From NCBI RefSeq assembly GCF_003352835.1, contig NZ_QLVD01000032.1, positions 1 to 64,000 on the forward strand: 64,000 nt of DNA, given 5' to 3'. The position numbers and the translations under genes were made by a program. Shown here piece by piece: positions 3,823 through 22,905 of this stretch. This DNA comes from Ornithinimicrobium murale (GTDB lineage: Bacteria > Actinomycetota > Actinomycetes > Actinomycetales > Dermatophilaceae). Under the pieces are notes generated by a model, which saw nothing but the letters and a program-made list of their open reading frames with translations, had not been told where the DNA came from and did not search any database. Each line of letters begins with the position of its first letter. The first letter of the stretch is position 1.

Positions 3823-3835
3823 TGGAGGTTAAGGC

Positions 3836-5341: not shown

Positions 5342-6852
5342 TGGTGCGGCGAGGAGGCTCCGGTCGGGACATGGGGCGGCTACTGAGTGACTTCGGGCAC
5401 GAACTGCCCCGGGTGGCCCGGGTCGAGAAGCCAGCCACGGCGCCACGGGTGTTCCGGTACGCGCAGCGGCGCGGGGCGCGGCGAAACGGTGCGGGTTGGG
5501 CGCCGGCGGTTGCGCCGGTGTCCCCCTGGCGGATGACGACCGACCAGGCGCCGGTGCTCTGGCCGTTCATCGCCCCACCGGGACTACCACCCACGGGTGC
5601 GCAGGTGGGTATCAACCAGCTCTCCGGTGGTGCGTTCAACTTCGACCCGCACGGGTGGGTGCTGGATGAGTCGGTGCAGGTCACCAACCCGAACGTGATC
5701 CAAATGGGCAAGCCGGGTACCCAGAAGTCGACCACGGTGAAGTGCTCGGCACTGCGGATGATGGAGTACGGGTACCGGTTGCTGATCCTGGGGGACATCA
5801 AGGACGAGTACGTCGATGTGTGCCGGGCACTGGGCCAAGAACCATTCGAGGTCGGCATCGGACTGCCGGCGCGGATCAACCCTCTGGATTTCGGGCCCTT
5901 GCGGCAAGGGTGGGAACGACTGGACCGGCAGGAGATCGAGCGGCGGTCCCAGATCGTGTTCTCTCGCTGGCTGACCCTGGTCGGGGGGTTGGTCGGCAGC
6001 CAGCAGGTGGGTGACCGGCGGGTGCCGTTCGGGCCGACCGAGGAGCGGGTCGTGGAGGCGGCGCTGCGCGAACTGACCGGGTACGCCTCAGCGCAGAGCA
6101 CCCTCACCGAGACGACGATCCCGCAGTTGTGGGACCTGATCGATAACCCGCCCAAGGCGCTGATTGAAGCCTGCCGGTATGAGTCGGAGGCGCACTTCTT
6201 CAACGACACCCGGCTGTTGCGGGACTCGTTGAGTGGGCTGGTGCGGGGCGCTCTGGCGGGGCTCTTCGATAACCACACCACGATCGACGTCGACTGGGCC
6301 GCGCCGATCCAGAGCCTGAGCCTGTCCAGGTTGAGGCAGTTGGGAGAGGAAGCTGTCGGGGTCGCCCTGCTGTGCGTGAACTCCTGGGGACGTGGGATGC
6401 GAGAGCTGGCCATCCCCGGCGACCTGCGGATCGTGGTGCGCGATGAGTCGTGGATGCAGATGCGGCTGGGACCTGCGGCGGTGAAGTCGTTCGACGCGGA
6501 CCTGAGGCTGTCCCGCACCGATGGCGAGTTGCAGTGGGCTGTGATGCACAAACCATCGGACCCGCTCTCGGCCGGCGACGCCGGGTCGCAGGCATGGAAC
6601 ATCGCCAAGGACCTCATCAACCTGGCTGACATCAAGATCCTGCACGGGCAGGACCCGAAGATCGCCAACGAGCTGGAACAGATCCTGGAGCTGGGGCCGA
6701 TCGTGCGCGACCTGGTGACCGGGTGGGCCAGGCGCGGACCGGGCCGGGCGGTCTGGATGGTCGGAGAACAAGCGTTCAAGGTCCAGATGGTGCGCCACCC
6801 GTTGGAGGTTGCCCTGACGAACACCAACCAGGCACTCGAAAAGGCCGGGTGA
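5341..6852 (+). CDS. VirB4-type conjugative ATPase (motor domain)
   Basis: The 503-residue P-loop ATPase has a Walker A region GKPGTQKSTT at about residues 123-132 and a Walker B-like LRIVVRDESW near residue 360. The usual glycine before the P-loop lysine is Gln here, a variation worth noting. The block VMHKPSD and the C-terminal HGQDPKIANELEQIL resemble the sensor and arginine-finger regions of VirB4/TraC ATPases. The start is either the GTG at 5338 or the ATG at 5341, which shares bases with the preceding stop. It should energise pilus/channel assembly together with the upstream SCO6880 protein. Confidence 0.85.
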   Translation: MVRRGGSGRDMGRLLSDFGHELPRVARVEKPATAPRVFRYAQRRGARRNGAGWAPAVAPVSPWRMTTDQAPVLWPFIAPPGLPPTGAQVGINQLSGGAFNFDPHGWVLDESVQVTNPNVIQMGKPGTQKSTTVKCSALRMMEYGYRLLILGDIKDEYVDVCRALGQEPFEVGIGLPARINPLDFGPLRQGWERLDRQEIERRSQIVFSRWLTLVGGLVGSQQVGDRRVPFGPTEERVVEAALRELTGYASAQSTLTETTIPQLWDLIDNPPKALIEACRYESEAHFFNDTRLLRDSLSGLVRGALAGLFDNHTTIDVDWAAPIQSLSLSRLRQLGEEAVGVALLCVNSWGRGMRELAIPGDLRIVVRDESWMQMRLGPAAVKSFDADLRLSRTDGELQWAVMHKPSDPLSAGDAGSQAWNIAKDLINLADIKILHGQDPKIANELEQILELGPIVRDLVTGWARRGPGRAVWMVGEQAFKVQMVRHPLEVALTNTNQALEKAG

Positions 6853-6859
6853 GGGGAAC

Positions 6860-8401
6860 GTGAAGACCGTAGGGCTGATCGTGCTAGCCGTGATGGCCGT
6901 GTTGGTCGGAGCCCCCGTGCTCACCGCCGTCGGGTTGATGGCGGTCGGTACCCCGGCGGCCGGTGAGGTCATCAGGGCCAAACCGTGTGAGGGCAACCCC
7001 CTGTCGCAGCACTGGCGTGCCCCGTTTGAGCAGGAGTACACGATCGCGACCGAGTTCGGGCAGAGCCGCCAGACTGGCGGACCGCCCCTGGAGGGAGTGG
7101 ACCTTCTCTCGGCGCAACAGCCCGGCGAGGTCGTCGCGGCCGCGCGCGGAGTGGTCACCTCCACCGCGACGCAGGACAGCGGCGCGAAGGCAATCGAGAT
7201 TGACCACGCACACGGCATCACCACCCGCTACGTGCACCTTGGCCAGATCAAGGAGGGCCTCACCGACGGTTCCAAGGTGAGCATCGGGCAGCCGCTGGGT
7301 ACCGAGGGCGGCACCGGCACCACCGCGGGGACCCTGCTCCACTTCCAAGTGCTCGTCGAGGACGTCCTGACAGACCCGGTGCAGTTCATGCGGGAACGGG
7401 GAACACCGCTGAACGGTGCTGCCGCGGACCAGTGGATCGCCCTGGACGTCGGCGACAAGGTCCTAGAGGGAGGCGTCGGGTTCGAGCTCCCCGAGCCCGG
7501 CGAGCCACGCAAGGACTCGCTGACCAACCCGGCACTGAGCGTGCCAGCCGACATCGAAGTACTGTACGAGCAGGCGGGGGAGGACTACGGGATCCCGGGC
7601 ACGCTGCTGGCGGGGATCGGGATGACCGAGACTGCCCATGGCCGCAACACGGCCGAATCGCCGGTCGGGGCACTGGGGCTGATGCAGTTCATGCCGGAGA
7701 CGTTCGCAGCATTCGGGGTCGACGGAGACGGCGATGGGATCGCGGACATCCGCAACGACGCGGACTCGATCTTCTCTGCCGCGAACTACCTGACGATCTC
7801 GGGTGTGCAGAACGGCCCTGACGGGGTGCGCGAAGCCCTATATGCCTACAACCAGGCCGACTGGTACGTCAACGACGTCCTCTTCTATGCGCACGAGTAC
7901 GGCGGCGGGATCGTCATCGGTGACCCGATCATCTGTGATGACCCGGTCAACCCCGGAAACCCCGAACTGCCACCGCTGACGAACGAGCGCATCGAGAGGA
8001 TGTTTGCCCGAGCCCAACTGGAACTTGGTGACCCGTACGTCCTGGGAGCCGAGGGACCCAACGCCTGGGACTGCTCCAGTTTTTCCCGGATGGCCTTCGC
8101 CGAGATTGGGATCACGATGCCACGCACCGCGAGGGCACAACGTGACTGGCTGGCCTCGGGTAACGGCTTCCGGGTGCCGCTGGGCAAGGAACGGCCCGGA
8201 GACCTGGTGTTCTGGGACTCCTACCGGGGACCGAACGAGATCGGTCACGTGATGATCGTCTGGGACCCGGCAAACATGTCGACCATCGAGGCGAAGATCC
8301 CCCGGGTCAGTCACGGCGACTACACCGCCGGGATCGACAAGAACATCTTCGAGATCTGGCGAGTGGGCAATATCGCCGACGACCCTGAGGGCGTGACCTG
8401 A
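6860..8401 (+). CDS. VirB1-like cell-wall hydrolase: M23-like, lytic transglycosylase and NlpC/P60 domains
   Basis: GTG start after GAGGGG. Residues 1-35 are a membrane anchor or signal. Residues 60-180 are an M23-like LytM fold, but the zinc site looks broken: LEGVDLL stands where HxGxD is expected and LLHFQV stands for HLHFxV. Residues 225-345 match the MltB/SLT-type transglycosylase core, with GIGMTETAHG (putative catalytic Glu) and GALGLMQFMPETF. Residues 375-500 are NlpC/P60, with the catalytic Cys in AWDCSSFSRMAF and the His in IGHVMIVWDP. It would open peptidoglycan for the transfer channel. It overlaps the next gene by TGATG. Confidence 0.85.
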   Translation: MKTVGLIVLAVMAVLVGAPVLTAVGLMAVGTPAAGEVIRAKPCEGNPLSQHWRAPFEQEYTIATEFGQSRQTGGPPLEGVDLLSAQQPGEVVAAARGVVTSTATQDSGAKAIEIDHAHGITTRYVHLGQIKEGLTDGSKVSIGQPLGTEGGTGTTAGTLLHFQVLVEDVLTDPVQFMRERGTPLNGAAADQWIALDVGDKVLEGGVGFELPEPGEPRKDSLTNPALSVPADIEVLYEQAGEDYGIPGTLLAGIGMTETAHGRNTAESPVGALGLMQFMPETFAAFGVDGDGDGIADIRNDADSIFSAANYLTISGVQNGPDGVREALYAYNQADWYVNDVLFYAHEYGGGIVIGDPIICDDPVNPGNPELPPLTNERIERMFARAQLELGDPYVLGAEGPNAWDCSSFSRMAFAEIGITMPRTARAQRDWLASGNGFRVPLGKERPGDLVFWDSYRGPNEIGHVMIVWDPANMSTIEAKIPRVSHGDYTAGIDKNIFEIWRVGNIADDPEGVT

Positions 8402-8871
8402 TGTCCACCAACAGACCACTGCAACGGGACCGCCGCGCTGACCCCTACCCGTGGACCTGGGAAATCCCCGTGGGCGCGATCATCGCCGCCGCCCTCCTGC
8501 TGATCCTGGGGGTGCACGTGGGACGCGGGCTGGCATGGCTGCTCTCCGGCCACGGGTGGGCCTGGCCGGGACAACTGGACCTGATCACCACCCTGCCGGC
8601 AGTGCTCGGAGGCGATGCACACGCTGGTCTCGCTGAGACAACGGCAGGCGGACCCGGGGCCGGGTGGGTGCGCGTCTGGGTCATCGTCACCGAACTGGTC
8701 ATCGTGGTGCTGCTGGGCGTGGCGACCTGGTACGGACTGGGGAGGTGGGGGCCTGGACGAGTCCACGGGGTGGCGACCAAGCCTGAGACCCAGCAGACCC
8801 TGGGGGTGGGCCGCCTCCGCAGGATCAAAGCCGTGGTGCGTCCCGACCTGTATGGAAAGGAACGGGAATGA
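8401..8871 (+). CDS. Two-helix membrane protein coupled to VirD4
   Basis: The 156-residue protein has two hydrophobic helices (VGAIIAAALLLILGVHVG and WVIVTELVIVVLLGVATWYGL) and a basic cytosolic tail ending in KAVVRPDLYGKERE. The following VirD4 protein lacks the usual N-terminal membrane helices, and the two genes overlap by four bases. This protein probably supplies the membrane anchor of the coupling protein. That is inference from gene order and domain complementarity; no family name is recognised. Confidence 0.7.
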   Translation: MSTNRPLQRDRRADPYPWTWEIPVGAIIAAALLLILGVHVGRGLAWLLSGHGWAWPGQLDLITTLPAVLGGDAHAGLAETTAGGPGAGWVRVWVIVTELVIVVLLGVATWYGLGRWGPGRVHGVATKPETQQTLGVGRLRRIKAVVRPDLYGKERE

Positions 8872-10331
8872 GGCGACACAACCGATTCGAACCGACAGAC
8901 GTCGGGTGGCAGCTAGGGACTTCCTACCAGCCTCGCGGGGGGAGCCTGTGGGTGCCATGGGACCGCACCACCGGGGTGATCGGCCCGCAGGGCTCCGGTA
9001 AGACCCTGGATCTCCTGACTCCAGCGCTGCTGCAGGCACCCGGTGCCGCCCTCGTCACTCTCACAAAGGTTGAAGACCTCCTGTTGACGTTGACGGCACG
9101 TTCGGCCGACGAACGTCCCATTGCAGTGCTCGACCCCTTCGGTCTGGCCCCTGGGGTACCGGAGTTGGTGTGGGACCCGATCGCCGGATGCGTCGACCCG
9201 ATGGTGGCCGAACGCCGAGCCAAAGCCTTCACCGCAGGCACCGTGAAAGGGGCAGTGCACGGCGGGACCGGAGACGACGCCGCCCGGTTCTACGCAGCTG
9301 AAGCATCCAAGGTGATCCAAGCCTATTTCCACGCCGCGGCCCTCACCGGCCAGCACCTAGAACAGGTGCTCACCTGGGTAGCCAATCCGCTAGCAGCAAG
9401 CGACCCCGGAGAGATCCTGCGTGAGCACCCACATAGCGCACCGTTCTGGTACGGCTTGCTCGAGGGCGCCCTGCGCGGAGATGACAGGACCGCCGGCAAC
9501 ACGATCACCACCATGCAGCAATCCATGGCCCTGTTCTTCCAGGCAGACATCCGCGGCCGGTGCGTCCCCGGCCCCGGCCGCCCGGCGACCAACCTGGAAG
9601 ACGTCATCGCCCAGAACGGGACCATCTACCTGCTCGGCCGGGAAGACCCCTACGCTTCCGCGTCACCGCTGATGACAGCGGTCGCCGAACAAGTCCTCGA
9701 CACCGCACTGAAACTGGGCAACGCCTCCCGGTGGGGCAAACTATGCCCACCCATGCTGGCCTGCCTGGATGAACTGCCATCGACGGCACCATTGCCCACG
9801 CTACGGACCCGTATGGCCAACGAACGCGCGCTGGGCATCTCATTCATCTGGGCCGCGCAGACCCGAGCCCAACTGAACTCGATCTTCGGCGAACAGGAAG
9901 CCCGGGCAGTGTTCGGGCTGACCAACGTCACCGTCCTCTTCGGCGGATCCAAAGACGTCCAGTTCAACCAGGAAATATCCGACCTCCTCGGACCCGTGCG
10001 GGTAGCCAGGAACAGCTGGCAGACCGGCAAGCGGGGCGGTCGCACCACCTCCGGAGAGGACATCCCCATCGTGAGCGCCGCCGAGGTGCGGCGCCTACCC
10101 GAACGGCAAGCCCTCGTCGTCCCAGAGAACGCGGGACCGGTGATCGCCAAGGTGCACCGCTGCATCGACGGCAAGACCGGCAAGGTGTTGCTCACGGAGC
10201 AGCAACAGATGCGTATGCACCTGGAGACCCGACGCCACCACACCATCAGCCCGCAGGCGCGCCAAACAGCCGCACTCGTCGAAGCCAGGCGCCTCGGTCT
10301 GGCCCGTCACGAAGAAAAGTCCTACCGGTGA
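8868..10331 (+). CDS. VirD4/TraG-type coupling protein
   Basis: The 487-residue soluble ATPase has a perfect Walker A, GPQGSGKT (residues 39-46), and a Walker B-like MLACLDELPS near residue 300. It also has the coupling-protein block starting GISFIWAAQTRAQL and the motif LFGGSKD. Coupling proteins bring the relaxase-DNA complex to the secretion channel. The N-terminal membrane helices normal for the family are absent, and the preceding two-helix protein may replace them. Its end overlaps the next gene by GTGA. Confidence 0.88.
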   Translation: MRRHNRFEPTDVGWQLGTSYQPRGGSLWVPWDRTTGVIGPQGSGKTLDLLTPALLQAPGAALVTLTKVEDLLLTLTARSADERPIAVLDPFGLAPGVPELVWDPIAGCVDPMVAERRAKAFTAGTVKGAVHGGTGDDAARFYAAEASKVIQAYFHAAALTGQHLEQVLTWVANPLAASDPGEILREHPHSAPFWYGLLEGALRGDDRTAGNTITTMQQSMALFFQADIRGRCVPGPGRPATNLEDVIAQNGTIYLLGREDPYASASPLMTAVAEQVLDTALKLGNASRWGKLCPPMLACLDELPSTAPLPTLRTRMANERALGISFIWAAQTRAQLNSIFGEQEARAVFGLTNVTVLFGGSKDVQFNQEISDLLGPVRVARNSWQTGKRGGRTTSGEDIPIVSAAEVRRLPERQALVVPENAGPVIAKVHRCIDGKTGKVLLTEQQQMRMHLETRRHHTISPQARQTAALVEARRLGLARHEEKSYR

Positions 10332-10963
10332 GCACCCAAACCACCCACCTGGCTCAACCCCTGGTGGCTCCGTTCCCGCAGATCGGGCCAGCGATGCTGG
10401 TGGCCTACCAGGACCTGAACATCGCCGGGGGCCTGGAAGGAACGAAGGAACAGCAAAAGGCGCTCGGCGACCCATCCCGGCTACCCAGGCCCTGGGACGT
10501 GACCACGTGCACGATGCCGCACCTGCGCAGGGAGGTCTGGCAGTGGCTGGAACAAGTCGTGAACTGGCTGAACCACGAGTTCGTCTGGGACGTCGCCACC
10601 AGCATCCCCGCGTGCTGGCCACGACACCCGCACCTTGTGCACGAGATCGGTGTCATCGCCGATCAGCGGCGCCGGGCAGGCCTACACGTGGACAGCGACG
10701 CACTGGAGGAGTGGCACCGGTACTGCCTGCCGGCGTTCACCGACCGGATGCGGACCCGCCTGAAGTCCCACTGCGAAGAAGGCCATCAACCCTGGCCCTC
10801 CAGAGGCCGCTACAACCGACACGCCAACGAAGCCAGCACCGTCGAGCGAACTCGCCTCTACGAAGCTGACGTAACGGCAACCACAGAGATACGCAGCGAA
10901 CCGTCCTCCCGCCCACGCCTGGGAGTGGTCGACCTGACCACCGGGGAGGTCACCGACCGCTAA
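10328..10963 (+). CDS. Conserved hypothetical protein at the end of the transfer operon
   Basis: GTG start in a 4-bp overlap with virD4. The 211-residue protein has a conserved-looking central block, VWQWLEQVVNWLNHEFVWDV, followed by CWPRHPHLVHEIGVIADQRRRAG. It ends with a short VVDLTTGEVTDR tail. The W/P/H-rich centre recalls the DUF4913-like proteins common in actinobacterial mobile elements, but I am not certain of the family. It has no membrane helix. Cotranscription suggests an accessory role in transfer. Confidence 0.65.
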   Translation: MSTQTTHLAQPLVAPFPQIGPAMLVAYQDLNIAGGLEGTKEQQKALGDPSRLPRPWDVTTCTMPHLRREVWQWLEQVVNWLNHEFVWDVATSIPACWPRHPHLVHEIGVIADQRRRAGLHVDSDALEEWHRYCLPAFTDRMRTRLKSHCEEGHQPWPSRGRYNRHANEASTVERTRLYEADVTATTEIRSEPSSRPRLGVVDLTTGEVTDR

Positions 10964-11245
10964 CCCAGGTCAGCAGGGATGCTGGTGTACTTCTCACCGT
11001 GGTTGGCGTGGCCGGCCCTAAGGTGCGCAGCGTACCGAAGACCACCCGATCGGTGTTGTTGACCCAGGTGAAGGTTGTGAACTGTTCGAAAAAACTAGTA
11101 TTCAGTTACCCTGGGTTTGCCGAAACAACCGGTGTTTTGGGCCGAGTCACCTGCGGGCCGTGCCTTGCTGCGAGTGGTATCGGGAAGTGCGACTCCGAGC
11201 CAAAGTCAAGTCCTCAGAAGTCGTAGGTAGGACTAGCGTTTGAGT

Positions 11246-12172
11246 ATGACGGTCCATCTTTTCGCGCTGAGTCCCGACAGTCAGTTCTTGCATGCCAGTG
11301 ACCGGTGGCTCACTGACAGTCGATCCAAGCGGCGAATGGACGACTTAGCGAACAAAGTCGTCGCGGTGCTGGCGGATGATGCACTCTTCACGATTGGGTC
11401 CACGGGCCACGCCTACATCGGAGAAACACCCATCGATGTTGCGATCGTCGAGGCCATCCTTGGGACTGACGTGTGGGACAAGGCATCATTCGTCGGTCGC
11501 CCACCGAACCCTGACCCTCGATACATGTCGCTTGGAAAGATCAGGAAGCGCATCACGGAACACCTCACGTCCCGCACCGCACGGATCCCCGGTTGGTTCG
11601 TGCAACTTGGGATCTCCGGCTTCCACCGGCGCCGACAACTCAGCATTCCGTTTATGTGGGACCTGCAGATCACGCATGGCAACGCATCGTTGCGCGAGTT
11701 GTCAACCGAGAAGGTCCGCTACTCGAATCGCACTTCGACGTGGACCATCGGATCGGGACGGTACTTCTTCCAGAACGAGTTCCAGCGCCTCCTGCGTGAA
11801 CCCAATGTGTTGATAAACGATGCCGCAGTCCTCGCAGGCCGCTATACCGCATCGCAGGAGCCGACCGTAGGGCCAGACGTCATGCTCGTCGAAGGCGTCA
11901 TCCGCGGCGATTCCGCTGGGCTGCGTGTGCAGTACCGACCGGCCATTGAAGGGTTATCGGTCCAGGTCTACGGCAGCCTGATTCCAGAGATGTACACCCC
12001 GTGGATCGTTACTCCAAACGGCAGTACCTCGCCCAGCGTGGTCGTCGGCCAGACCCAGAGTGTCGGTGGCTTGCAGGTGGAAGTGCTTCCTCCGCCCGGC
12101 GCACCACCAATTGACGGCGACGTCGCGCTCATTGTGGCTCCCATCCCGCGCCCTGGATCCAGGGGGCGCTGA
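11246..12172 (+). CDS. Orphan protein with an Ntn-hydrolase/proteasome-like N-terminus
   Basis: The 308-residue product (ATG at 11246; a TTG two codons earlier is possible) begins TVHLFALSPDSQFLHASDRWLTD and continues with NKVVAVLADDALFTIGSTGHAYIG. The beta-strand pattern with a Thr at position 2, the ASDR-type turn and the GSTG turn resembles the first sandwich strands of Ntn hydrolases such as HslV/proteasome beta. The remainder (about residues 90-308) is unrecognised. Its G+C and codon use are visibly lower than in the flanking transfer genes, and it sits alone between the transfer operon and the resolvase/methylase block, so it is probably recent cargo. The function is unknown. Confidence 0.6.
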   Translation: MTVHLFALSPDSQFLHASDRWLTDSRSKRRMDDLANKVVAVLADDALFTIGSTGHAYIGETPIDVAIVEAILGTDVWDKASFVGRPPNPDPRYMSLGKIRKRITEHLTSRTARIPGWFVQLGISGFHRRRQLSIPFMWDLQITHGNASLRELSTEKVRYSNRTSTWTIGSGRYFFQNEFQRLLREPNVLINDAAVLAGRYTASQEPTVGPDVMLVEGVIRGDSAGLRVQYRPAIEGLSVQVYGSLIPEMYTPWIVTPNGSTSPSVVVGQTQSVGGLQVEVLPPPGAPPIDGDVALIVAPIPRPGSRGR

Positions 12173-12274
12173 TGGTCGCCGCTTCTCACATTCCTCGGAA
12201 CGAAGGATCTGAGGGCGACGGGCACAGGACTGTGATCATTCGGCGTGGTTCCCGAACTGCCGACAACACCTGAG

Positions 12275-12300
12275 GCGTTGGGGTACACCCCAACGCAACA
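12275..12300. repeat. Perfect 22-bp palindrome with 2-bp core, candidate serine-recombinase site (copy A)
   Basis: The arm GCGTTGGGGT (12275-12284) is followed by the dinucleotide AC and by the exact reverse complement of the arm (12287-12296), then AACA. A 2-bp core between symmetric arms is the layout of serine recombinase crossover sites. The serine resolvase gene starts 83 bases downstream. A related copy occurs at 58473, with the same downstream CGTTT-CCCTG block at identical spacing. Confidence 0.55.
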
Positions 12301-12378
12301 GTCAGCGATGAGACGTTTTCCCTGGTGCGCCAAGTCTACTTCCCGGCTTTTGCAACACATGCGTGCAAGGGCCTAGAC

Positions 12379-12992
12379 ATGGCGCAACACAGTGGGCAGC
12401 GGATCGGATACGCGCGGGTGTCGAGCACCGACCAGAACCTCGCTCGGCAGATCGCCACGCTCGACGCGGTGCACCGGTTGTTCGAGGAGAAGCAGTCCGG
12501 CTCCCGGCGCGACGGCCGTACCTCGCTGGCCGAAATGATCGCCTACGCCCGCAAGGGGACACCGTGGTCGTCTCCTCGATGGACCGGCTCGCACGCTCAG
12601 TCGTGGACCTGAACCAGACCGTGGGAGAGCTGGTCGCCAAGGGCGTGGTCGTCGAGTTCATCACCGAGCGGGTCGCCTTCCGCCCCGGCGCCACCGACGC
12701 CTTCGCCGAGTTCCAGCTCAACATCATGGCCTCCTCCGCCCAGTTCGAACGCGCCATCGCCAAGGAACGGCAAGCCGAGGGCATCCGCGTCGCGAAGGCC
12801 CGCGGCGTCTACACCGGCAGAGCCCGCAAGCTGACGGCCGCGCAACTGACCGAGGCGCGCGAGCTGATCGCAACCGGGGTGCCCAAGGCCCAAATGGCAC
12901 GCCGGCTCGGCGTCGACAGATCGACCCTGCACCGAGCGCTCATCGCTGTGCAGAGGACTTCGGACAATCGTGCAGCCGACTTCGGACATTGA
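12379..12992 (+). pseudogene. Serine recombinase (resolvase/invertase family), frameshifted
   Basis: The N-terminal part from the ATG at 12379 reads RIGYARVSSTDQNLARQI, the catalytic-serine block of Tn3-type resolvases. At the G run 12555-12558 the frame is lost. One base back, the protein continues GDTVVVSSMDRLARSVVDL, then the E-helix region and a C-terminal helix-turn-helix ending GVDRSTLHRALIA. Restoring one G gives a full-length protein of about 204 residues of normal family size. So the gene is either a fresh pseudogene, a sequencing error in a homopolymer, or (less likely) a frameshifting gene. The candidate site at 12275 lies just upstream. Confidence 0.8.
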
Positions 12993-13156
12993 CAAAAACT
13001 GCAGGTTCGGGTCCGGTTGACTACCGCCGGGTGCACAACACCGGACGCGAACACTTCGGGCTCCACGGCGGGCGCAAGTGAGAGCCGGGTGACTCCGCCG
13101 GGGCGCTCACGGCTAGTCTTGCCATGCGTTCGGCACACGAGGAGATGCGAGGGAGC

Positions 13157-14341
13157 ATGGCGAACAAGGACCTGGGAGCTGCCAAGAAGGCCAAGCAGGA
13201 CGAGTTCTACACCCAGTGGGCCGACATCGAGCGCGAGATGAACGCCTACCTGGAGTATGACGCAAACGTCTTCCGTGGCAAGACGATCCTCCTGCCATGC
13301 GACGACCCTGAGTGGTCCAACTTCACCAAGTTCCTCGCCCTGCACTTCGCCGACTTCGGCCTGAAGAAGCTGATCTCGACCTCCTACGCGCCCAACAGCA
13401 ACGCCGGAGCGGCCTTTTACACCCCGACCCTGTTCGAGACCGACGACCCGGCGTACGACGAGGGCAAGTCGCTTGAACGCGGTCGCGTCTTCACCCTCAC
13501 CCCCGAGGATGTCTCCGGTGACGGGCGCGTGGACATCGACGACCTGAAGTGGGAATACCTCGACGGTGACGGCGACTTCCGCTCCGCCGAGGTCACCGCC
13601 ATGCGCGATGAGGCCGACATGGTTATCACGAACCCGCCGTTCAGCCTCTTCCGCACCTTCATGGCATGGCTTGGCGCTGGCGACGTGCGGTTCTCTGTGA
13701 TCGGCAACAGCAATGCCATCACGTACAGCCAGATTTTCCCGCTGATCAAGGAGAACCGGGTGTGGAAGGGCGCGACAGCCAACACCACCGACATGGTCTT
13801 CGGGGTTCCGAAGGGCTTCCCACTCAAGGACGCCGATCGCGCGAAGGCCGAACGCATGGGCTACCCGTCGACGGCCGAGTACGACTTCACGAGACTCGGC
13901 AATTCATGCTGGTTCACCAACATCGAGCACGGCCGCCGACATGAACCGCTGCAGTTGATGACCATGGCTGACAACCTCAGGTTCAACAAGAAGCTCATCA
14001 AGGGTCTCGACGGCGGTGACGGGTACCAGAGGTACGACAACTTCGATGCGATCGAGGTCCCGTACACCGATGCGATTCCCAGCGACTTCGACGGCGTGAT
14101 GGGTGTTCCGATCACGTTCCTGGACAAGTTCAATCCCGACCAGTTCGAGATCGTCGACCTCAGTCGTTATGCGAAGACGCAGGGCATGTCGAAGGAGTTC
14201 GTCGATGCGTACTACGCGTCTGGGCAGACCGGACAGATCAGCGAGGGTCACCCTGACCTCTGCTACTACAGCAACGCTGGGCGACCTGTTGTCCCCTATA
14301 TGCGAGTCCTGATCCGGAGAAGGGATACCCCGTCTTCATGA
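13157..14341 (+). CDS. EcoRI-family adenine-specific DNA methyltransferase
   Basis: The ATG at 13157 follows GAGGGAG; an in-frame ATG at 13124 lacks this. The 394-residue product has the N6-adenine methylase motif IV as [11 protein letters not shown] (about residues 154-164). It also has an N-terminal block [13 protein letters not shown] and the conserved [19 protein letters not shown] typical of the EcoRI methylase family. It transfers a methyl group from S-adenosylmethionine to adenine in DNA. No EcoRI-type nuclease is present. The next gene, overlapping by four bases, encodes a DUF262-HNH protein, so the pair probably acts together. Confidence 0.85.
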
Positions 14342-15516
14342 AGACCGATCTCAAGCAATACACGGTGGCCCAGGTCACTGAGGGCTTCGTCTACAACGAA
14401 CTCGAAGGCAAGGGCCTCTACGGGCTCGGTGGCACGCTCACGATCCAGCCGGAGTACCAGCGCAACTACATCTACGGCGACGGCAAGAAGGACGTCGCCG
14501 TCATCGACTCTCTGCTTAAGGGCTACCCGCTCGGGCTCATCTACTTCGTCGACACCAAGGACCCCTCCGGCCCGCACCTGGAGGTCCTCGATGGCCAGCA
14601 GCGCATCACCAGCGTCGGGCGATTCGTGACCGGCAAGTTCGCCATCATCCGCGACGGCAAGGAGCAGACCTTCTCTTCGCTGCCCAAGGAGGACCGTGAG
14701 CGCATCGAGAACAGCGAGCTGCTGGTCTATGTGTGCAGCGGCACCGAGGTCGAGATCAGGGACTGGTTCGAGACCATCAACATCGCCGGGGTGCCGCTCA
14801 ACAAGCAGGAGATTAACAACGCCCTCTACTCCGGGCCCTTTGTCACTGCGGCCAAGGCCGAGTTCTCGAACTCGCAGAACGCCCTCCAGCAGAAGTGGTC
14901 CCACTTCGTCAAGGGTGACCCCAAGCGGCAGGAGGTCCTCGAAGAGGCCCTCGACTGGGTCGCATCATCCAAGGGTCAGACGATCGACGGCTACATGGCT
15001 GCCCACCGCACCGACACCACCATCAACGAGCTGAAGGTCTACTTCACGACCGTCATCGACTGGATCGACAGCGTGTTCACCGCCTCGCCGGACAAGACCA
15101 TGCGCGGGATCGACTGGGGCCGACTCTACGAGAAGTACCACCACAAGTCCTACAACACTGCCACGATCGACGCAGACCTCCAGGACCTGCTCGATGACCC
15201 CGCTGTCGGCGACCGCAAGGGCATCTACGAGTACCTCCTCGACGGCAAGCAGGACACACGGATGCTCAACGTCCGCCTGTTCGACGCCCCGACCAAGAAG
15301 AAGGCCTACGCAGCGCAGACCACAAAGGCCAATGCCGACGGCACCTCGAACTGCCCGCTGTGCGCGCACGGCTTAAACGCCAACAAGGACCGGATCTACA
15401 AGTCGAACGAGATGGAGGCCGACCACGTGGCCGCATGGTCTAAGGGTGGGGAGTCCACCCTGCAGAACTGCGAGATGCTCTGCGTTCCGCACAACCGCTC
15501 TAAGGGCAACCGCTGA
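14338..15516 (+). CDS. DUF262 (GmrS-like) protein with C-terminal HNH nuclease domain
   Basis: The 392-residue product starts in an ATGA overlap with the methylase gene. Residues 35-100 carry the DUF262/ParB-Srx-like signature ([23 protein letters not shown]). The C-terminus (about 340-392) is an HNH nuclease: CPLC, then [13 protein letters not shown], then [18 protein letters not shown]262 proteins include GmrSD-type modification-dependent and SspE-type phosphorothioate-sensing nucleases, which use NTP through the DGQQR site. Tight coupling to a methylase suggests a restriction partner that discriminates by methylation. That function is inference; the domains are clear. Confidence 0.85.
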
Positions 15517-15600
15517 CCGGGTGGGCGACGCATTCCCCCAGGGCTGGTCGTTCACCCTTGAGGGGCCCCTTCGAGTTACTCCTGGCAGCAAGGAACGTCT

Positions 15601-15762
15601 CTAGTCGTCGCTCATGATGAGCCAGCGGGTGGGTAGCCGGTAGCCGGGGAGGTCTGCGTTATCGAGCCATCTGGTGACGGTGTGCGCGTCGACGCGCAGG
15701 TAGTGCGCGACGTCTTCGACCGTGAGTTGGTCTCGGTCGGTCCTCAGGATGCTGTTGTTCAT
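15601..15762 (-). CDS. Small excisionase/MerR-type helix-turn-helix protein
   Basis: A 53-residue frame starts at an ATG read leftwards from 15762, with GGGAG at proper spacing. It reads LTVEDVAHYLRVDAHTVTRWL and then LPGYRLPTRWLI, the helix-turn-helix plus wing of Xis-like (HTH_17) proteins that bind DNA at attachment sites or act as small regulators. It stands alone, downstream of and facing the relaxase gene, with a double hairpin directly upstream of its start. An excisionase for an element in this window or a transfer regulator are both possible. Confidence 0.75.
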   Translation of the reverse strand: MNNSILRTDRDQLTVEDVAHYLRVDAHTVTRWLDNADLPGYRLPTRWLIMSDD

Positions 15763-15777
15763 GGTGTGCTCCCAGGT

Positions 15778-15827
15778 CTATTGGTGTGACAACCTGTGAG
15801 AGCAGGTGGTGGCGTCCGAACCAATAG
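15778..15827. repeat. Nested inverted repeat upstream of the excisionase-like gene
   Basis: The outer arms CTATTGGT (15778-15785) and ACCAATAG (15820-15827) are perfect complements. Inside them ACCTG (15792-15796) pairs with CAGGT (15803-15807). The structure begins 16 bases upstream of the small HTH gene's start, so it is a candidate operator or recombination-directionality site. Confidence 0.45.
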
Positions 15828-15948
15828 CGGAGCCCCGCCAGGGCGGGCGGCGCCGTGTCAACCCGTAGGGACTGGAGGAGTGCAGTTTCGGCGCGAAATA
15901 GGCGCAGGGAGGGACGACCGGAGCGCGTGCCGAAAGTTCACGGGGGAG

Positions 15949-15966
15949 CGGCCCCTGCAGGGGGCC
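15949..15966 (-). terminator. GC-rich hairpin, possible terminator of the relaxase gene
   Basis: The sequence GGCCCCTGCAGGGGGCC at about 15950-15966 folds on itself with one extra G. It lies about 100 bases past the stop of the leftward relaxase gene. No T run follows, so it is only a possible intrinsic terminator. The remainder of 15763-16065 shows no gene. Confidence 0.3.
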
Positions 15967-16065
15967 TGACTCGGTGCTGGTCGTCTGCATCGTTGGCCGC
16001 TTGGTCGGCGCAACCCTTTGGCTCTAGTCGTTGCTTTCGAGCCCCTGTGGAGACCGCCGAGGGAG

Positions 16066-19000
16066 TCACCGGCCCCTGCTTGGGGACCGCCTGCGGGTCT
16101 GACTAGGAACGGACCGGCGCTGTTCTCGCGCCGACCGGCCAGCGGGCGAGGTGCGCAGCAGCGGTTGCGCAGGCTGACCCAGTGGTAGGTGTGTTTGCAG
16201 CCGGTGGCGCATTTCGAGGGCGGGCTCCGGCCCAAGGGGGTCGCGGGACACGAGTGCGCGGGCGGCCTTGGCCACGTCGTGCCCTTGCTCTTGCGCTGAT
16301 TGCATGACGGCCGCCAACGCGGGCCAGTCTGGTGCGTGCGGCAACCGTGGATCGAGGTCGGCGGCGAGGCCCGCCCACCGGGTGGTCTGCTCCTGAGGAT
16401 CGGCGGCAGACAGCCTCTGCCGGACCGTGTTGACCTCTTGGAGTGGCTTGCTGGCTGCCTTAAGCGGGTCGGTGTTCCAGACCTGGACCACAGCCGCCAC
16501 CGAGCGGGTGACCTGTTCTGTGGAGCGGCGCAGCCGGTTGCTGACCTGCTGGATGCCCGTGGCCCACGCGGTGCCTGGCCGGGCGGCCAGAACCTGGGCC
16601 GCATGTCGTTGCGCTTGGTGGGCAGGCAGGTTGGTTAGCCGCTCATCGAGCAACGTTTGACCCAGTGGGCGCGCCTGGAGCAGTACATCGTGCAGCCGGG
16701 CGGGCCCGTGCTCGGTGAGGATGCTGGCCGGGTCAGCGCCTTGCGGTAGCGGGGCCTGGGTGGGGTCGAGCCCGTGGGGAGTGAGCAACCAGTAGGCACG
16801 TTCGGCCGCGGCGGCGCCTGCCTGGTCGGCATCGGTAGCGACGATGGGGTTCATCTGCCCGCGGGCGATCTGGATGGCTTGGTCCTCGGTGAGGGAGGTG
16901 CCCAAGGGTGCGTAGCCGACGTGCGTGCCGTTGCTGGCCAGGGTGACTGCGATGGCGTCGATTGGACCCTCAACGAGGACTGGGATCGCCCACTCGTCGG
17001 CGACGGCGGGTCCGTACAGTTGGGCGGACTTGTCGAACAAGGGTGTAGCCGGGGTGTTGAGGTATTTGGGGCCAGACTTGTCTGCATCGGTGGCGTCGGG
17101 GTGGCGCCGGCCCACGAAGGCGAGCACGTCACCTTCGTGCACGATGGGGAATACGACTCGGTCGCGGAACCGGTCGATGACGTTGCCGTTGCGGGCGGTG
17201 GTGGCCACCCCGGTGGTGACCATTTCTTCATCGCTGATTCCGCGGCCGCGCAGGTGGTCGACCAGGTGGGTCCACCCAGCGGGTGCCTGCCCGGGGCGGA
17301 ACCGGGCGTCGCCGGTGATGTCCTGCCCCAGCCGGTCAACAAGATGCTGCTGGCCCCAGGAGCCGGGGAGCTGGGACTCATAGAACTCCAGTGACCACTG
17401 GTTGATCTGCACCATCCGCTCCCGCGAGACGGGAGACTCATCCCAGGCCGTGGCCCGGACGACCTGCCGTTCGATTGCTGCGTCCGGTTCGAGCACGGGA
17501 CCCATGGTCTGCCGGACGAGGGCAGCGAGTCCGAGGGATGCCACAGCGTTCTCCTCGAGCAGGTCGCTGCCTTCGGGGGTAGCGGCGTCGTACTCGGGGT
17601 CCGGTGGCTGCTGGTGAAACGGAACCGGTTCCTGGTCAGTCGGGCTCTGCCAGAGATCCTCCGACGGCTCAGCGTCGTCCTCGGGGTCTGGCGGTGGGGG
17701 GTCGTCGCCCGGTTCGGGGTGAAGCAGGGTGGCGGCCCGCCAAACCAGGACCTGGCACAGGTCATCGCTGCCGCTGGTGGCGTAGTCGTAGTCGGACGGG
17801 ATGTTCACCAGGTCTTCCAGGGAGTACCGCTCGCGCATCCCGCGCTCGACCGCGGTGATGAGCTGTGGCCACCAGTGGCTGCCGTGCACCTGTTGGGCCA
17901 GGTCCTGCCCCAACAGGTCTCCTAGCCGGTCGGCCCAGGCTGGATGCAGCGGGTGGCGCCCCTCGGTCGCGTCGCCCAGGTCGACCCCGGTGACGTGCTC
18001 GCTGATCCGCCACCACAGCGCTGAGACGGGGTGGTCATCGGGCAGCGGTCCTTCAGCAGCGGCTCGGTCCAGCATCGCGTCCGCGGGCAGCCCTGCCTGG
18101 TCGATCATTTGCAGGTGCTCGGCCAGCAGCGCAGTGAATGAGTCCTTGTGGGCCAACGGCACGTGCGCGGTGATGGCTTGGACCCAGGCGGTGAGTTCGG
18201 GGCTGACCTGCTCACCCAGACGGATGCTCAGCTTGCCCTGCCACCGGGACGCGGCCTTCTGCAGCTGCGGCCGGCCGGTGGGGCGGAGGTCCTGGGCTGG
18301 CACCCTGGTGGCGGCACGCCACACGGCGATATCGCCGACGAGACGGTCGGACGGGCGGCCGTGGCGGGCCCACACCGGTGTTCTCGTGGAGTCGGCGGCT
18401 GCGCCGTGGACCTGCTCGGCCAGGTCGCTGACCTGGTGGGCACGGGCATTCAGGTACGGACCCCAGGTGTGATGCTGGCTGAGTGCGTTGGGGATCGCCG
18501 GCGCCCAGGGGAGGGGACCGGTCCCGGCCCCACGGTGGCCGGTGTCATCCAGACGCCAGTCCAGGACGGCCGCACGGTCAGCGGCAGTGTCGAGTTCCCG
18601 GTTGCCAGCTGCTGCTTTGAGGGCGGCCAGCGGGTCGACGCCGTGGGCGCTGTGCAGCAACAGGTGGGCGCGTAGTGCCGGCCAGGCGGCCTCGTCGGTG
18701 AGGCCGGGGACAACCTGTTCGGCGTTGTCTTCGAGGGCCTTCACCATCCCGGCTGGGGCGGTGTCCTCGGCGGCGTAGTAGAGGGCGTCGACGTACCGTT
18801 CGGTGGCATCCGGTAGCCGTTCGGACGGGTCGTCCTGGCGGCGCAGCATGGTGCTGGCGGAGACCGAGGAGCCGTCCCGGGCCAGGATGTCCTCAAGCAG
18901 ATCTGTTGCGGTCGGTGGGTGCACCGCCTCGGCCCGGATCACGTTGTGCGGGTCACCATCGGAGGTAGTCGGCAGGTACAGGTGGTTGCCCTGCCCACCG

Positions 19001-21795
19001 CGGCTCAACATGGTGTACAGCTGCTGGCGGGTCAGGTCGCTGGTCGCTAGACCGTGGACGGTGTCTGTGCTGATGCCCTGGGCGGCGTGGATGGTGGAGG
19101 CGTAGCCCAGTTCGGTGTGATCGCGTACGTAGGCGGCCGGCAGGGTGATGTGTCTGCCGTTGCGGGTGTGTTGGACGGTCAAGGCGCCGCCGTGGTGGGT
19201 TTCCTTCACCGTCCACCGGTCGCCGTTCTTGACGAAGTCGGTGGGTGTGAGCCGCAGGGAGCGTTGGTTCTGGCGGGTGATGACCAGGTCTCCGACGCTG
19301 GCCCGGTTGCCGTCAGCGAGGGGAACGACCGGCCCATCGACCTGCTCGGTGTTCTGCAGCCGGTGAGCACGGGCGCGTTGGTTCAGTTCACTGGCGAGTT
19401 CGCGGGTCGGGGCCAGCATGATCGTGTCCTTGCCTGCCGCCCGGTCGGCGTGCCAGGCGGTGAAGACGTCGTCGGTGAGCATGGCCAGGTCTCCGACGTG
19501 GACCCTGCCGTTGTCCAGGTAGAACCCGAGGGCTTCGCCTCGGCCGTCCCGCAGAGCCAGGGTCGCACCTGCCTCCGCGGGATCGGTGAAGCGCATCAGC
19601 TCGGACAGGTGCGAGGCACCGTGGGTGGCTTGGATGTCGCGGAGCACACCACCGGCGCCGATCGCAGCCAACTGCTGGTCATCTCCCACGAGGCGGACGC
19701 TGCCGCCACGATCAGTGACGAACCCGATCGCGGCGTCCAGGGAAATGGTGTCGGCCATCCCGGCTTCGTCGATCACCACGAGGGTCTTGGGGCCGATGGT
19801 TTCGGCCCAGTCGGGCAGGTCGTTCTTGCCGGACAGGCCCCATGTGAGTTTGGCCAGGGTGTCGGTGCTGGCGCCGATCTGTTCGCGCAGCACCGCGGCG
19901 GCTCCCGCGGATGGTGCCAGCCCGACCACGGTGCCACCCCCCTCTGTCCACGCCTTGGAGAGGGCTTGCATGGCGGTGGTTTTGCCTGACCCAGCCGGGG
20001 CGATCGCCAGGGCCAGACGTGCGGGGCTGGTGGCCATTTGAGAGACCAGGAGCGACTGTCCTGCGTTCAGGGTGATGCCGTTGGCGGTGCTTTCCAGCAG
20101 AGTCACGTCGACCGCGGACTGGGGTGCGGTGAAGCCGTCAAAGCGACCGGCCATCGCCACAATCCGATGTTCGGCGTCGAGCACGGTCTGTGAGGTGAAC
20201 AGGTCCGCACCGGCGACGGAGTAGACGCTGGCGCCGTCGGCGCGGCGCAATTGGTCCGGCTCGGTGATGCCGTCACGGGAGGCTGTCAGGGCGACGCAGC
20301 GGCCCTGGAGGACCTCAGAGACGATCAGGTCAACGGCCTTCTCTGCCTGCTCCGGGACGATGTTGGCCGATCGCACCTGGCGCTGGGCCTCGGCGCGGAC
20401 GTGCCACACCTGCCAGGTCGAGCGACGTGACTGCATCGCCTCCAGCACCGTGTCAGCCGTCTGGTAGACCCAGGCGGTGTCGGCGACCTGGCCAGGGCCC
20501 GGCGCCTGGTGGCGGACGTGGGTGAGCATGCGGGACAGGCCTTCCTCCCCCAGGACGTCCAGTGCCTCGGCGTGCCAGGCCTCTCGCTGCTGCGCCAGGG
20601 TCCGGGGTTCGTGCTTGGCTTCCCTGGTCTCCAAGGTGGCTTGCTGGGCCAGTTGCACCGACTCGATCGCCGTGGGTGGCCGCCCGTGGTCGGCCTGGAA
20701 GCCGGCGGCCAGCTCCCCGGTGCGCTCCTGGATGCTGACCCGCCGGGAAGACCACCGCTGATTCAGTGCGACGTCAACACCGTCGATCTCACGGATCGGA
20801 CGCTTGCCAGGGGATAGGTCGGCACGCTCGGTGAACCGCAGCCCCATCGTCGCGCGGAGCCGCCGCTCGATGGAGGTGTTGTAGGTCTCCGAGGCTGTGA
20901 CGGTGGCCTTGTACAGGATCCGGGCGTCGACGCTCAGCCACCGTCCGTCCTCGGCTGTCTGCACCTTATTGGCCACGGCCACATGAGTGTGCAGATCCGG
21001 GTCACCGGCGCGGGAGTCACGGTGGGTGAACGCGGCCGCGACCAGGCCCCGGGTGTCGACCTGACGGACACCGTTGGTGCCGGTCCGGGTGTACAGGCCG
21101 TGGTTCTCGAGGAAAGACAGCGCGTCCTGCACTGCTCCTTGGTGGGCGAGCTCGATGGCTGCTGCGGTGGGTTCGTCGGCGACCGCCCACAATGCTGAGA
21201 TGCTCTTGACCGGGGAGAAGGTGAGGTCGAAACCGGCGACCGCAGTGGTCCGGGGCCGGGAGTATTTGGCGATCTGCCCGGACAACTCGCGGGCATCACG
21301 CGGCTCACGGCCGAACTCGTCCCGGAACAGTTCTCCTCCGACCTCGGTGCGGATCCGTGCGCGCTCCTCGTCGGGAATGGGCGCATCGACCGGTTGGGCA
21401 TGCTGCGTGTTGTAGGCCTGGACCGCGCCGGCGACCCGACGCCGGAACTCATCGACGTCACCGGTAAACACCTTGAACGGGGTGCCCAGCCGGGTGACGT
21501 CTTGTATCTCCCGGTTGCTGGCCCCCCGCTCCTCGAGCGCTGCTCGGCGCTGCTCGGCAAGAGGGTGGTGACCGGATCCGAACAGGGCCTGCATCTGCTC
21601 GGCAGTGACCACGTCGCCGGCGTCCAGCCCGTCGATGCCAGCCATGCCGGATCCGATCCACTGCCCGGGGGTCTCGCCGCGCTCGGTGTAGTAGGTCGCC
21701 AGACCGGAGTGGCCTTTCTCCGTGACATCCTGCGCGGCGACCTGCCGGGTCAGGTAGTCATATCCCGACCCGGCAGTGAGCTTGTGGATGCTCAT
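16066..21795 (-). CDS. traA: TraA-type MobF relaxase fused to helicase and primase
   Basis: The start at 21795 follows AGGGGG; a longer frame begins at 21831. The 1909-residue protein begins MSIHKLTAGSGYDYLTRQV, with the relaxase tyrosines at Y12/Y14. The metal-binding His triad is in FTHRDSRAGDPDLHTHVAV (about residues 257-273). A RecD2/TraI-type helicase follows, with Walker A IAPAGSGKTT (near 600), VVIDEAGM (near 690) and motif VI-like ASTIHAAQGIS. The C-terminal third carries DnaG-like zinc-less primase/TOPRIM features: VEGPIDAIAV and IVATDADQAG. It would nick oriT, unwind the transferred strand and possibly prime it in the recipient. Confidence 0.93.
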   Translation of the reverse strand: MSIHKLTAGSGYDYLTRQVAAQDVTEKGHSGLATYYTERGETPGQWIGSGMAGIDGLDAGDVVTAEQMQALFGSGHHPLAEQRRAALEERGASNREIQDVTRLGTPFKVFTGDVDEFRRRVAGAVQAYNTQHAQPVDAPIPDEERARIRTEVGGELFRDEFGREPRDARELSGQIAKYSRPRTTAVAGFDLTFSPVKSISALWAVADEPTAAAIELAHQGAVQDALSFLENHGLYTRTGTNGVRQVDTRGLVAAAFTHRDSRAGDPDLHTHVAVANKVQTAEDGRWLSVDARILYKATVTASETYNTSIERRLRATMGLRFTERADLSPGKRPIREIDGVDVALNQRWSSRRVSIQERTGELAAGFQADHGRPPTAIESVQLAQQATLETREAKHEPRTLAQQREAWHAEALDVLGEEGLSRMLTHVRHQAPGPGQVADTAWVYQTADTVLEAMQSRRSTWQVWHVRAEAQRQVRSANIVPEQAEKAVDLIVSEVLQGRCVALTASRDGITEPDQLRRADGASVYSVAGADLFTSQTVLDAEHRIVAMAGRFDGFTAPQSAVDVTLLESTANGITLNAGQSLLVSQMATSPARLALAIAPAGSGKTTAMQALSKAWTEGGGTVVGLAPSAGAAAVLREQIGASTDTLAKLTWGLSGKNDLPDWAETIGPKTLVVIDEAGMADTISLDAAIGFVTDRGGSVRLVGDDQQLAAIGAGGVLRDIQATHGASHLSELMRFTDPAEAGATLALRDGRGEALGFYLDNGRVHVGDLAMLTDDVFTAWHADRAAGKDTIMLAPTRELASELNQRARAHRLQNTEQVDGPVVPLADGNRASVGDLVITRQNQRSLRLTPTDFVKNGDRWTVKETHHGGALTVQHTRNGRHITLPAAYVRDHTELGYASTIHAAQGISTDTVHGLATSDLTRQQLYTMLSRGGQGNHLYLPTTSDGDPHNVIRAEAVHPPTATDLLEDILARDGSSVSASTMLRRQDDPSERLPDATERYVDALYYAAEDTAPAGMVKALEDNAEQVVPGLTDEAAWPALRAHLLLHSAHGVDPLAALKAAAGNRELDTAADRAAVLDWRLDDTGHRGAGTGPLPWAPAIPNALSQHHTWGPYLNARAHQVSDLAEQVHGAAADSTRTPVWARHGRPSDRLVGDIAVWRAATRVPAQDLRPTGRPQLQKAASRWQGKLSIRLGEQVSPELTAWVQAITAHVPLAHKDSFTALLAEHLQMIDQAGLPADAMLDRAAAEGPLPDDHPVSALWWRISEHVTGVDLGDATEGRHPLHPAWADRLGDLLGQDLAQQVHGSHWWPQLITAVERGMRERYSLEDLVNIPSDYDYATSGSDDLCQVLVWRAATLLHPEPGDDPPPPDPEDDAEPSEDLWQSPTDQEPVPFHQQPPDPEYDAATPEGSDLLEENAVASLGLAALVRQTMGPVLEPDAAIERQVVRATAWDESPVSRERMVQINQWSLEFYESQLPGSWGQQHLVDRLGQDITGDARFRPGQAPAGWTHLVDHLRGRGISDEEMVTTGVATTARNGNVIDRFRDRVVFPIVHEGDVLAFVGRRHPDATDADKSGPKYLNTPATPLFDKSAQLYGPAVADEWAIPVLVEGPIDAIAVTLASNGTHVGYAPLGTSLTEDQAIQIARGQMNPIVATDADQAGAAAAERAYWLLTPHGLDPTQAPLPQGADPASILTEHGPARLHDVLLQARPLGQTLLDERLTNLPAHQAQRHAAQVLAARPGTAWATGIQQVSNRLRRSTEQVTRSVAAVVQVWNTDPLKAASKPLQEVNTVRQRLSAADPQEQTTRWAGLAADLDPRLPHAPDWPALAAVMQSAQEQGHDVAKAARALVSRDPLGPEPALEMRHRLQTHLPLGQPAQPLLRTSPAGRSAREQRRSVPSQTRRRSPSRGR

Positions 21796-21847
21796 CGTCA
21801 CACCCCCTAAGTCACTCGCGAGGGCCGTCACCTCGCGTGAGGAAAAG

Positions 21848-21866
21848 AGTAGAATAGAAAGAATAG
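21848..21866. promoter_or_regulatory. AT-rich motif shared with the DUF932 gene upstream region, plus inverted repeat
   Basis: AGTAGAATAGAAAGAATAG here matches, in reverse complement and with one change, bases 28768-28786. Right beside it the arms ACTGGT (21868-21873) and ACCAGT (21890-21895) form a hairpin. This is the upstream region of the relaxase gene, where a promoter, operator or oriT is expected. Confidence 0.5.
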
Positions 21867-21955
21867 TACTGGTGGACAGCCCTATTAGAACCAGTCCTTA
21901 TAGCCGGTTCGAAGTTGCAGGCGGCAGGTCAGGCTTCCGGCTGTGGGGCGGTTGT

Positions 21956-22899: not shown

Positions 22900-22905
22900 G
22901 GGCTG

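Follow-up and report, generated by a model that had tools for sequence, protein, structure and literature searches.

Two overlapping genes for an EcoRI-family methylase and a DUF262-HNH protein

The window analysed here, a stretch of 64,000 nucleotides from Ornithinimicrobium murale, carries two plus-strand genes joined by an ATGA stop-start overlap (14338..14341). The upstream gene, M (13157..14341), codes for an EcoRI-family adenine-specific DNA methyltransferase of 394 aa, and the downstream gene, R (14338..15516), for a protein of 392 aa with a DUF262 (GmrSD_N) NTPase-like domain, a helical middle and a C-terminal HNH domain. A sequence-only reading of this DNA had described a methylase with an NPPF motif that ends in an ATGA overlap with a gene encoding DGQQR and an HNH domain, and both the sequence and the Pfam matches confirmed it.

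The Pfam family EcoRI_methylase (PF13651) covered residues 6-388 of M (E 2.1e-112), and M was also matched by the PADLOC model MTase_II (PDLC03297, E 2.5e-82), which covers the methylases of EcoRI systems as well. Homology thus assigns M to the EcoRI-family N6-adenine methylases. All four residues of its NPPF motif (N159, P160, P161 and F162) were invariant in 36 aligned Ms. The start at 13157 was favoured over an in-frame ATG at 13124, which would lengthen M by 11 aa, on the basis of the starts of homologues and of GAGGGAG just upstream. M of the window is 39 percent identical to an M.EcoRI from an E. coli plasmid; for the Ms of loci L070, L042 and L101 the identity to M.EcoRI is 58-59 percent. 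The structure model of M had a pLDDT of 81; Foldseek gave zero matches to it at E up to 0.001, a profile search for a solved EcoRI-family methylase structure gave 0 matches, and no NCBIfam model matched M or R at E up to 0.01. We also noticed in M a 12-residue loop (residues 118-129, window 13508-13543) with a pattern that resembles a dockerin/EF-hand calcium loop. The pattern was present in 16 of 56 Ms partnered by DUF262 proteins, in 1 of 4 with neither R nor EcoRI as partner, and in 0 of 4 partnered by EcoRI.

In R, the Pfam family GmrSD_N/DUF262 (PF03235) matched residues 36-164 (E 1e-20) and HNH (PF01844) residues 354-392 (E 3.2e-6), with a weak match to HNH_5 (PF14279). The usual partner domain of DUF262 is DUF1524 (PF07510), for which R gave no Pfam match at E up to 0.01, and R was not matched by the EcoRI nuclease family (PF02963) either. 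The absence of an EcoRI-type nuclease, as claimed earlier, held for all 16 window proteins scanned with Pfam, none of which matched PF02963. The PADLOC model REase_II (PDLC03418, 'Type II restriction enzyme') matched R over residues 11-391 (E 1.3e-89); NsnA, PD-T4-2 and others were weaker PADLOC matches.

The DGQQR motif, known for NTP hydrolysis in DUF262 proteins, occupies residues 85-89 of R (14590..14604, plus strand), and all its five residues were invariant in 48 aligned Rs, as were P38, Q41 and R42. R of the window reads LDGQQR, which we counted as agreeing with the (I/V)DGQQR pattern of the GmrSD family. In the HNH module (15352..15513, plus strand), C339, D362, H363, N377, N386 and K389 were invariant, and C342 and C382 were conserved in at least 90 percent of the same 48 Rs. 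From these invariant motifs and from what is known of the families it follows that R is a predicted nuclease with an NTP-binding DUF262 pocket. Type II enzymes are defined by cleavage that is independent of nucleotide hydrolysis, and an NTPase of the DUF262 type is, to our knowledge, unusual among them. The invariance of DGQQR suggests that R depends on NTP, and R is probably an uncommon, nucleotide-driven kind of nuclease.

Fold comparison and the possible reading of the methyl mark by R

The AlphaFold2 model of R (pLDDT 88, pTM 0.67) was searched for similar folds. Taken as shared domain folds, of which those with Z < 8 may reflect a common arrangement, the best matches for residues ~1-150 were BrxU (Z 9.8, rmsd 3.1, 129 residues) and SspE (Z 7.8, 131 residues), with ParB/Noc-type CTPases below both (Z ~6.5); residues ~308-392 matched the HNH nucleases TasH, McrA, a Geobacter nicking HNH and the Cas9 HNH (Z 4-6.4), and DndI aligned loosely to residues 5-312 (Z 5.7, 212 residues, rmsd 6.3). 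The matches chiefly cover the parts that flank the helical middle (residues ~167-310).

This ranking of folds would suit an enzyme of the SspE/DndI kind, in which the DUF262 domain of R binds N6-methyladenine (m6A), and the mark stimulates NTP hydrolysis, detaches R from self DNA and activates nicking of an unmarked invader. Such a pair would be the base-methylation counterpart of the phosphorothioate systems. According to the portions available of two reports, SspE and DndI are nucleases of the DUF262-HNH type that work with a partner modifying DNA, and the mark enhances their NTPase: replacement R87A within the DGQQR of DndI ended ATP hydrolysis and made phage defence weaker, the ATPase of DndI was stimulated by phosphorothioate DNA, and SspE hydrolyses GTP in order to come off marked self DNA and to activate nicking (PMC11662687, PMC9646914). 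For Dazbog, a review likewise states, in the part available, that DUF262 likely recognises methylated DNA (PMC10952713). These precedents make an m6A-reading R plausible, and the invariant DGQQR and the retention of R with M in most loci (see below) are in line with it. However, the C-terminal domain of R is an HNH domain of PF01844 and not DUF1524, and classical blocking of the nuclease by methylation is simpler and explains the same genomics in fewer steps. We regard the reader as unlikely; it overlaps the explanation that we prefer, a Type II-like restriction-modification system, and differs from it in how self is recognised.

Pairing of the two genes across genomes

The survey of R drew on one genome per prokaryote species and used short R peptides as queries, which favours Rs near that of the window. 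It gave 78 R-like loci, spread over many bacterial phyla and present in some archaea too, with 35-71 percent identity in the best segment. When these loci were searched by tblastn with a panel of Ms, M adjoined R on the same strand in 73 of the 78, in agreement with the earlier proposal of a conserved two-gene unit resembling a restriction-modification system. In four of the five other loci (L014, L031, L050 and L061) the R match reaches to, or to within ~150 bases of, the end of its contig, and the fifth (L079) is a lone HNH fragment. Every full-length R with upstream sequence in this set has an M, which fits toxicity of R without M.

The converse search started from M. PF13651 was matched in 3 of 31 genomes of the genus and in 10 of 346 of the phylum (the own genome included in both), and in 17 of 296, 5 of 398 and 9 of 398 genomes (17, 4 and 8 above the cut-off) around three centres in other phyla, which going by the locus names are Bacteroidota, Pseudomonadota and Bacillota. 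R lay downstream of 32 of the 37 complete EcoRI-family Ms from these four phyla that had at least 1 kb of downstream sequence (9/10, 14/18, 3/3 and 6/6 in the individual sample sets). Two of the 37 carry the EcoRI nuclease, upstream of M in each case (L102, PF02963 E 3.8e-140; L103, nuclease end, E 4e-89), and three (L087, L109 and L112) had neither R nor EcoRI within the 1.5 kb examined. Left out of this tally were the own copy (L082), the centres chosen for having the pair (L094, L123 and L132), same-place duplicates (L092, L093, L115, L116, L121 and L136), Ms that covered less than 80 percent of the query M closest to them (L091, L114, L117, L119, L120 and L134), one M located where its contig ends (L100) and rows in which tblastn detected no M (L110, L126 and L135); among the incomplete Ms omitted, only L119 has an R beside it. 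The co-occurrence check proposed with the sequence-only reading was thus run from both genes, and rare pairing was not seen. The usual partner of the EcoRI-family methylase in the sampled genomes is the DUF262-HNH protein, and EcoRI is the exception.

The spacing of the two genes was compared in 103 pairs, the window included, with the starts of M and R set by alignment to the window's proteins. Since 42 of the 103 pairs share the exact 4-base overlap and 93 have a spacing of -15 to +30 bases, the coupling is not a matter of chance; a 1-base overlap was found in 5. The distance matrices of M and R were correlated over 55 pairs (r 0.68), and 0 of 2000 permutations reached this value, the highest being 0.21.

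Some loci depart from the simple arrangement. Among the spacing outliers, a Fic-family gene (L007:4422-4967) and a BRO-N gene (L142:5378-6229), both in Bacteroidales, lie between M and R, and in L065 this position is taken by a protein without a Pfam match. Two or more EcoRI-family Ms surround a single R in L044:1697-5678 and L128:388-3659; more than one methylase is also a known feature of systems whose sites are asymmetric.

A short or disrupted M stands beside a full-length R, away from contig ends, in L006, L041, L066, L108 and L119, most of which are metagenome bins, where assembly may explain some of the cases. In L006 the M is broken by an insertion element (3293-4482, with a minus-strand transposase named by eye) and R is of full length. 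The opposite combination, a short R beside a full-length M, was seen in L058 and L098, and a third case, L076, has masked bases. Short Ms thus outnumber short Rs, which is not as predicted for a nuclease that is lethal without M, and in view of the five short or disrupted Ms we draw no firm conclusion on the toxicity of R without M.

Two further explanations can be weighed against the pairing. Because DUF262 is the N-terminal domain of GmrSD and BrxU is the top fold match, R could be an independent Type IV enzyme directed at modified phage DNA, with M a mere neighbour. The constancy of the neighbour in both counts, the correlated divergence, the coupled frames and the lack of DUF1524 make this very improbable, and we rejected it on the fixed pairing. 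The relatives of DUF262 include modification-dependent enzymes, as far as the available part of the literature describes them, and the sequence-only reading had accordingly offered the alternative of a nuclease directed at DNA marked by its partner methylase (m6A-dependent restriction). For an operon made up of M and R this would be self-destructive, since the co-travelling pair would attack its own host, unless the mark only regulates R, as in SspE. We rejected it too on the fixed pairing, and consider it the least credible of all the explanations.

Methylase tree and the relationship to EcoRI

A tree was built from 66 Ms under LG+G4, with the long row L109 dropped and the root placed at the midpoint. 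The four EcoRI-partnered Ms grouped together (100/100), with the DUF262-partnered M of L070 joined to their branch (100/98), among 56 DUF262-partnered Ms; a quick tree of 67 Ms agreed. The tree leans towards the DUF262-HNH layout as the older form under the midpoint root, with a root on the EcoRI branch also possible. In the unrooted tree the EcoRI-partnered Ms make up one side of a branch and all the DUF262-partnered Ms the other, and we infer the direction of change. The simplest history is that the EcoRI methylase may have come from a DUF262-HNH system, the nuclease being replaced and the gene order reversed. Doubtful, to our mind, is the joint proposal that R is an NTP-driven reader of N6-methyladenine self marks and that the layout of M with DUF262-HNH is the older one, from which EcoRI arose by a nuclease swap.

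In addition to these partners, an EcoRI-family M fused to a C5-cytosine methylase was observed on a plasmid of L. plantarum (L141:2180-5806), and an EcoRI-family M in a Lachnospiraceae phage (L144:609-4110) carries the annotation of a single long DNA methyltransferase. Behind both long Ms lie two genes, of ~290 and 165 aa, without a Pfam match, which could be a third type of restriction partner.

Mobile context

The pair is located between a TraG/VirD4-like coupling protein (8868..10331, plus strand; Pfam PF12696 and PF02534), which recurs in the genus and forms the left edge of a cargo hotspot, and a MobF relaxase-helicase with a DnaG/Toprim region (16066..21831, minus strand; NCBIfam MobF E 1e-68; Pfam TrwC, AAA_30, DNAG_N and Toprim), which forms the right edge. 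At 1921 aa the MobF protein is very large and resembles a relaxase-helicase-primase fusion (DnaG-N plus Toprim). A cargo hotspot had been proposed earlier, and the comparison within the genus supported it: the backbone repeats, with a differing 3.8-50 kb between the coupling-protein and relaxase blocks among the matches listed. Some part of 5001-23000 was matched in 29 of the 31 genus genomes, own included, also among the matches listed. Read by eye from the matches listed, with block ends that differ by up to ~2 kb, the gaps were 3.8 kb in G027, 5.2 kb in G015, 8.3 and 20.5 kb in G028, 13.8 kb in G006, 14.6 kb in G024, 14.9 and 49.9 kb in G029, 16.8 kb in G014, 19.4 kb in G001 and 41.5 kb in G021; a second element of the own genome has a gap of 22.3 kb, versus ~6 kb in the window. 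Of the 31 genomes, just three matched PF13651 (the own genome, G006 and G019), and in G006 the methylase lies outside the gap. The M-R pair is one of many cargoes of this conjugative-element hotspot.

The neighbourhood holds several other features. The serine resolvase gene upstream of the pair (12325-12992) seems split between two reading frames, with the N-terminal part at 12325-12612 and the rest at 12363-12992, as a result of a broken gene or of a sequencing error. A 310-aa ORF in the cargo stretch (11240-12172) was left unmatched by Pfam, NCBIfam, PADLOC and PHROGs (E up to 0.01). A cadmium resistance transporter (Pfam Cad, 21956-22552) adjoins the relaxase, and 21544-23000, or parts of it, appeared in several genus members as stretches of 87-96 percent identity among the matches listed.

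Outside the genus, megablast with the first 25 kb of the window found two Pimelobacter plasmids that match the coupling protein and the relaxase, in two pieces making up 7 percent of the 25 kb, and five plasmids that match at M or R only, from Yimella (75 percent over R), Pseudarthrobacter, Arthrobacter, Gordonia amicalis and Rhodococcus antarcticus. Both M and R were present in the phage records of Flavobacterium phage laban6-1, MT838873 and MT835503. Three mycobacteriophage records matched M without a match to R, and in the one inspected no nuclease was annotated right beside M; an M without R in these phages fits a protective mark.

The presence of the pair on small plasmids, conjugative elements and phages with differing backbones is also what one would expect of a selfish stabilisation module, in which a cell that loses the element is harmed because R goes on acting on DNA that has lost its mark, phage defence being secondary. 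The short or disrupted Ms beside full-length Rs speak against such a module. It would use the same biochemistry as a restriction-modification system, is not exclusive of it and is not separable from it by sequence; as the main role of the pair we hold it possible but clearly less likely than not.

GAATTC and the target site

The window contains 0 GAATTC sites, versus 5.7 expected from dinucleotide shuffles, which at first sight resembles avoidance through restriction. The site is rare throughout the genus, with 17-197 copies in each of 31 genomes, whether or not they carry the system, and 62 in the own genome. Against a fourth-order Markov expectation, the observed/expected ratio in 356 kb of the own genome was 1.05 (rank 43 of 54 palindromes), and in 200 kb each of G019 and G006 it was 1.14 and 1.03; the five control genomes, at 80 kb each, had too few expected sites to judge. 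Avoidance of GAATTC by the host was therefore ruled out, and no target site was deduced from the counts.

A pair in Prevotella intermedia ATCC 25611 offers a comparison. In the part of the report available, Pin25611FORF1345P and its methylase appear as a Type II pair whose predicted site is GAATTC, with an EcoRI-like methylase gene of 972 bp followed, after 71 bases, by a nuclease gene of 1104 bp; no GAATTC methylation was detected in the methylome, and the authors call the system inactive (PMC5608340). From its size and gene order alone, we infer that this nuclease belongs with the R family. GAATTC or a relative of it may be the site of some members.

Proposed function and comparison with known systems

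In our judgement M and R quite probably form a self-contained, mobile Type II-like restriction-modification system that includes the NTPase module of GmrSD, BrxU and SspE, its activity being predicted. M would mark a short site in the DNA of the host and of the element, and R would cut or nick DNA whose copies of the site lack the mark. By analogy with BrxU, SspE and DndI, the HNH domain could be gated by DUF262 as it binds or hydrolyses NTP. With M read first and R coupled behind it, the protective enzyme would precede the nuclease on entry into a new cell. Self and non-self could be told apart in two ways: methylation may simply block R, or R may read m6A and leave marked DNA, as SspE does with phosphorothioate. 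Within this explanation about two thirds of our confidence goes to the plain block. The co-occurrence in both directions, the coupled spacing, the co-divergence, the invariant motifs, the varied plasmids, phages and elements and the PADLOC Type II assignment of both proteins argue for a restriction-modification system; the Prevotella pair without GAATTC methylation (in the portion of that report available), the five short or disrupted Ms set against two short Rs, the DUF262 NTPase, unusual for Type II, and the lack of GAATTC avoidance by the host argue against it.

The pair has the methylase family PF13651 in common with the EcoRI system, and an EcoRI nuclease, matched by PF02963 or so annotated, stood beside such methylases in the same scans. 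R, however, is unrelated to EcoRI and lies downstream of M, whereas the EcoRI nuclease is encoded upstream. A separate methyltransferase and nuclease side by side, as in Type II systems, are found here, and PDLC03297 and PDLC03418, whose models are themselves predictions, describe the same predicted family as M and R. With the Type IV enzymes GmrSD and BrxU, R shares DUF262 with DGQQR, and BrxU is the best fold match of its residues 3-150, but R carries HNH PF01844 in place of DUF1524 and has a methylase next door; GmrSD acts without a cognate methylase, whereas M, judged by adjacency, accompanies R at 73/78 loci. The SspABCD-SspE and DndBCDE-DndI systems, as portrayed in the sections available, resemble R in having a DUF262 and His-Me-finger nuclease that works with a modification of self DNA. 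They differ in that several proteins make a phosphorothioate mark, whereas here a single base methylase is present and R lacks DUF1524. No dnd or ssp families were found among the window proteins scanned with Pfam, NCBIfam and PADLOC, and the partner of R is the PF13651 methylase.

In the open-access literature we found no description of an EcoRI-family methylase with a DUF262-HNH nuclease, no experiment on an R-type nuclease, and no joint occurrence of 'EcoRI methylase' and 'DUF262'. The papers that mention DUF262, EcoRI and methylase do not, in the portions available, describe the M-R pair; one figure legend among these excerpts lists DUF262, HNH and C5 methylase among prophage genes. Machnicka 2015 deals with DUF262 in combination with DUF1524; of the restriction genes in the neighbourhood it gives those of Type I as the commonest, and EcoRI goes unmentioned in the text (PMC4619093). 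Type II nucleases, according to the accessible part of a major review, are mostly PD-(D/E)XK, HNH and GIY-YIG variations, with a few others (PMC4081073). The M-R family is already known as a prediction, from PADLOC and the Prevotella table, and is less novel than the sequence-only reading implied; we rate the locus as a Type II variant whose nuclease is uncommon rather than as a new category.

If our explanation is correct, the pair would link the nucleotide-gated Type IV enzymes and the phosphorothioate-reading nucleases with ordinary methylation-based restriction. It is small, occurs on plasmids and phages and would be easily assayed. The origin of EcoRI would also become testable, as its methylase family is mostly paired with R in the sampled genomes.
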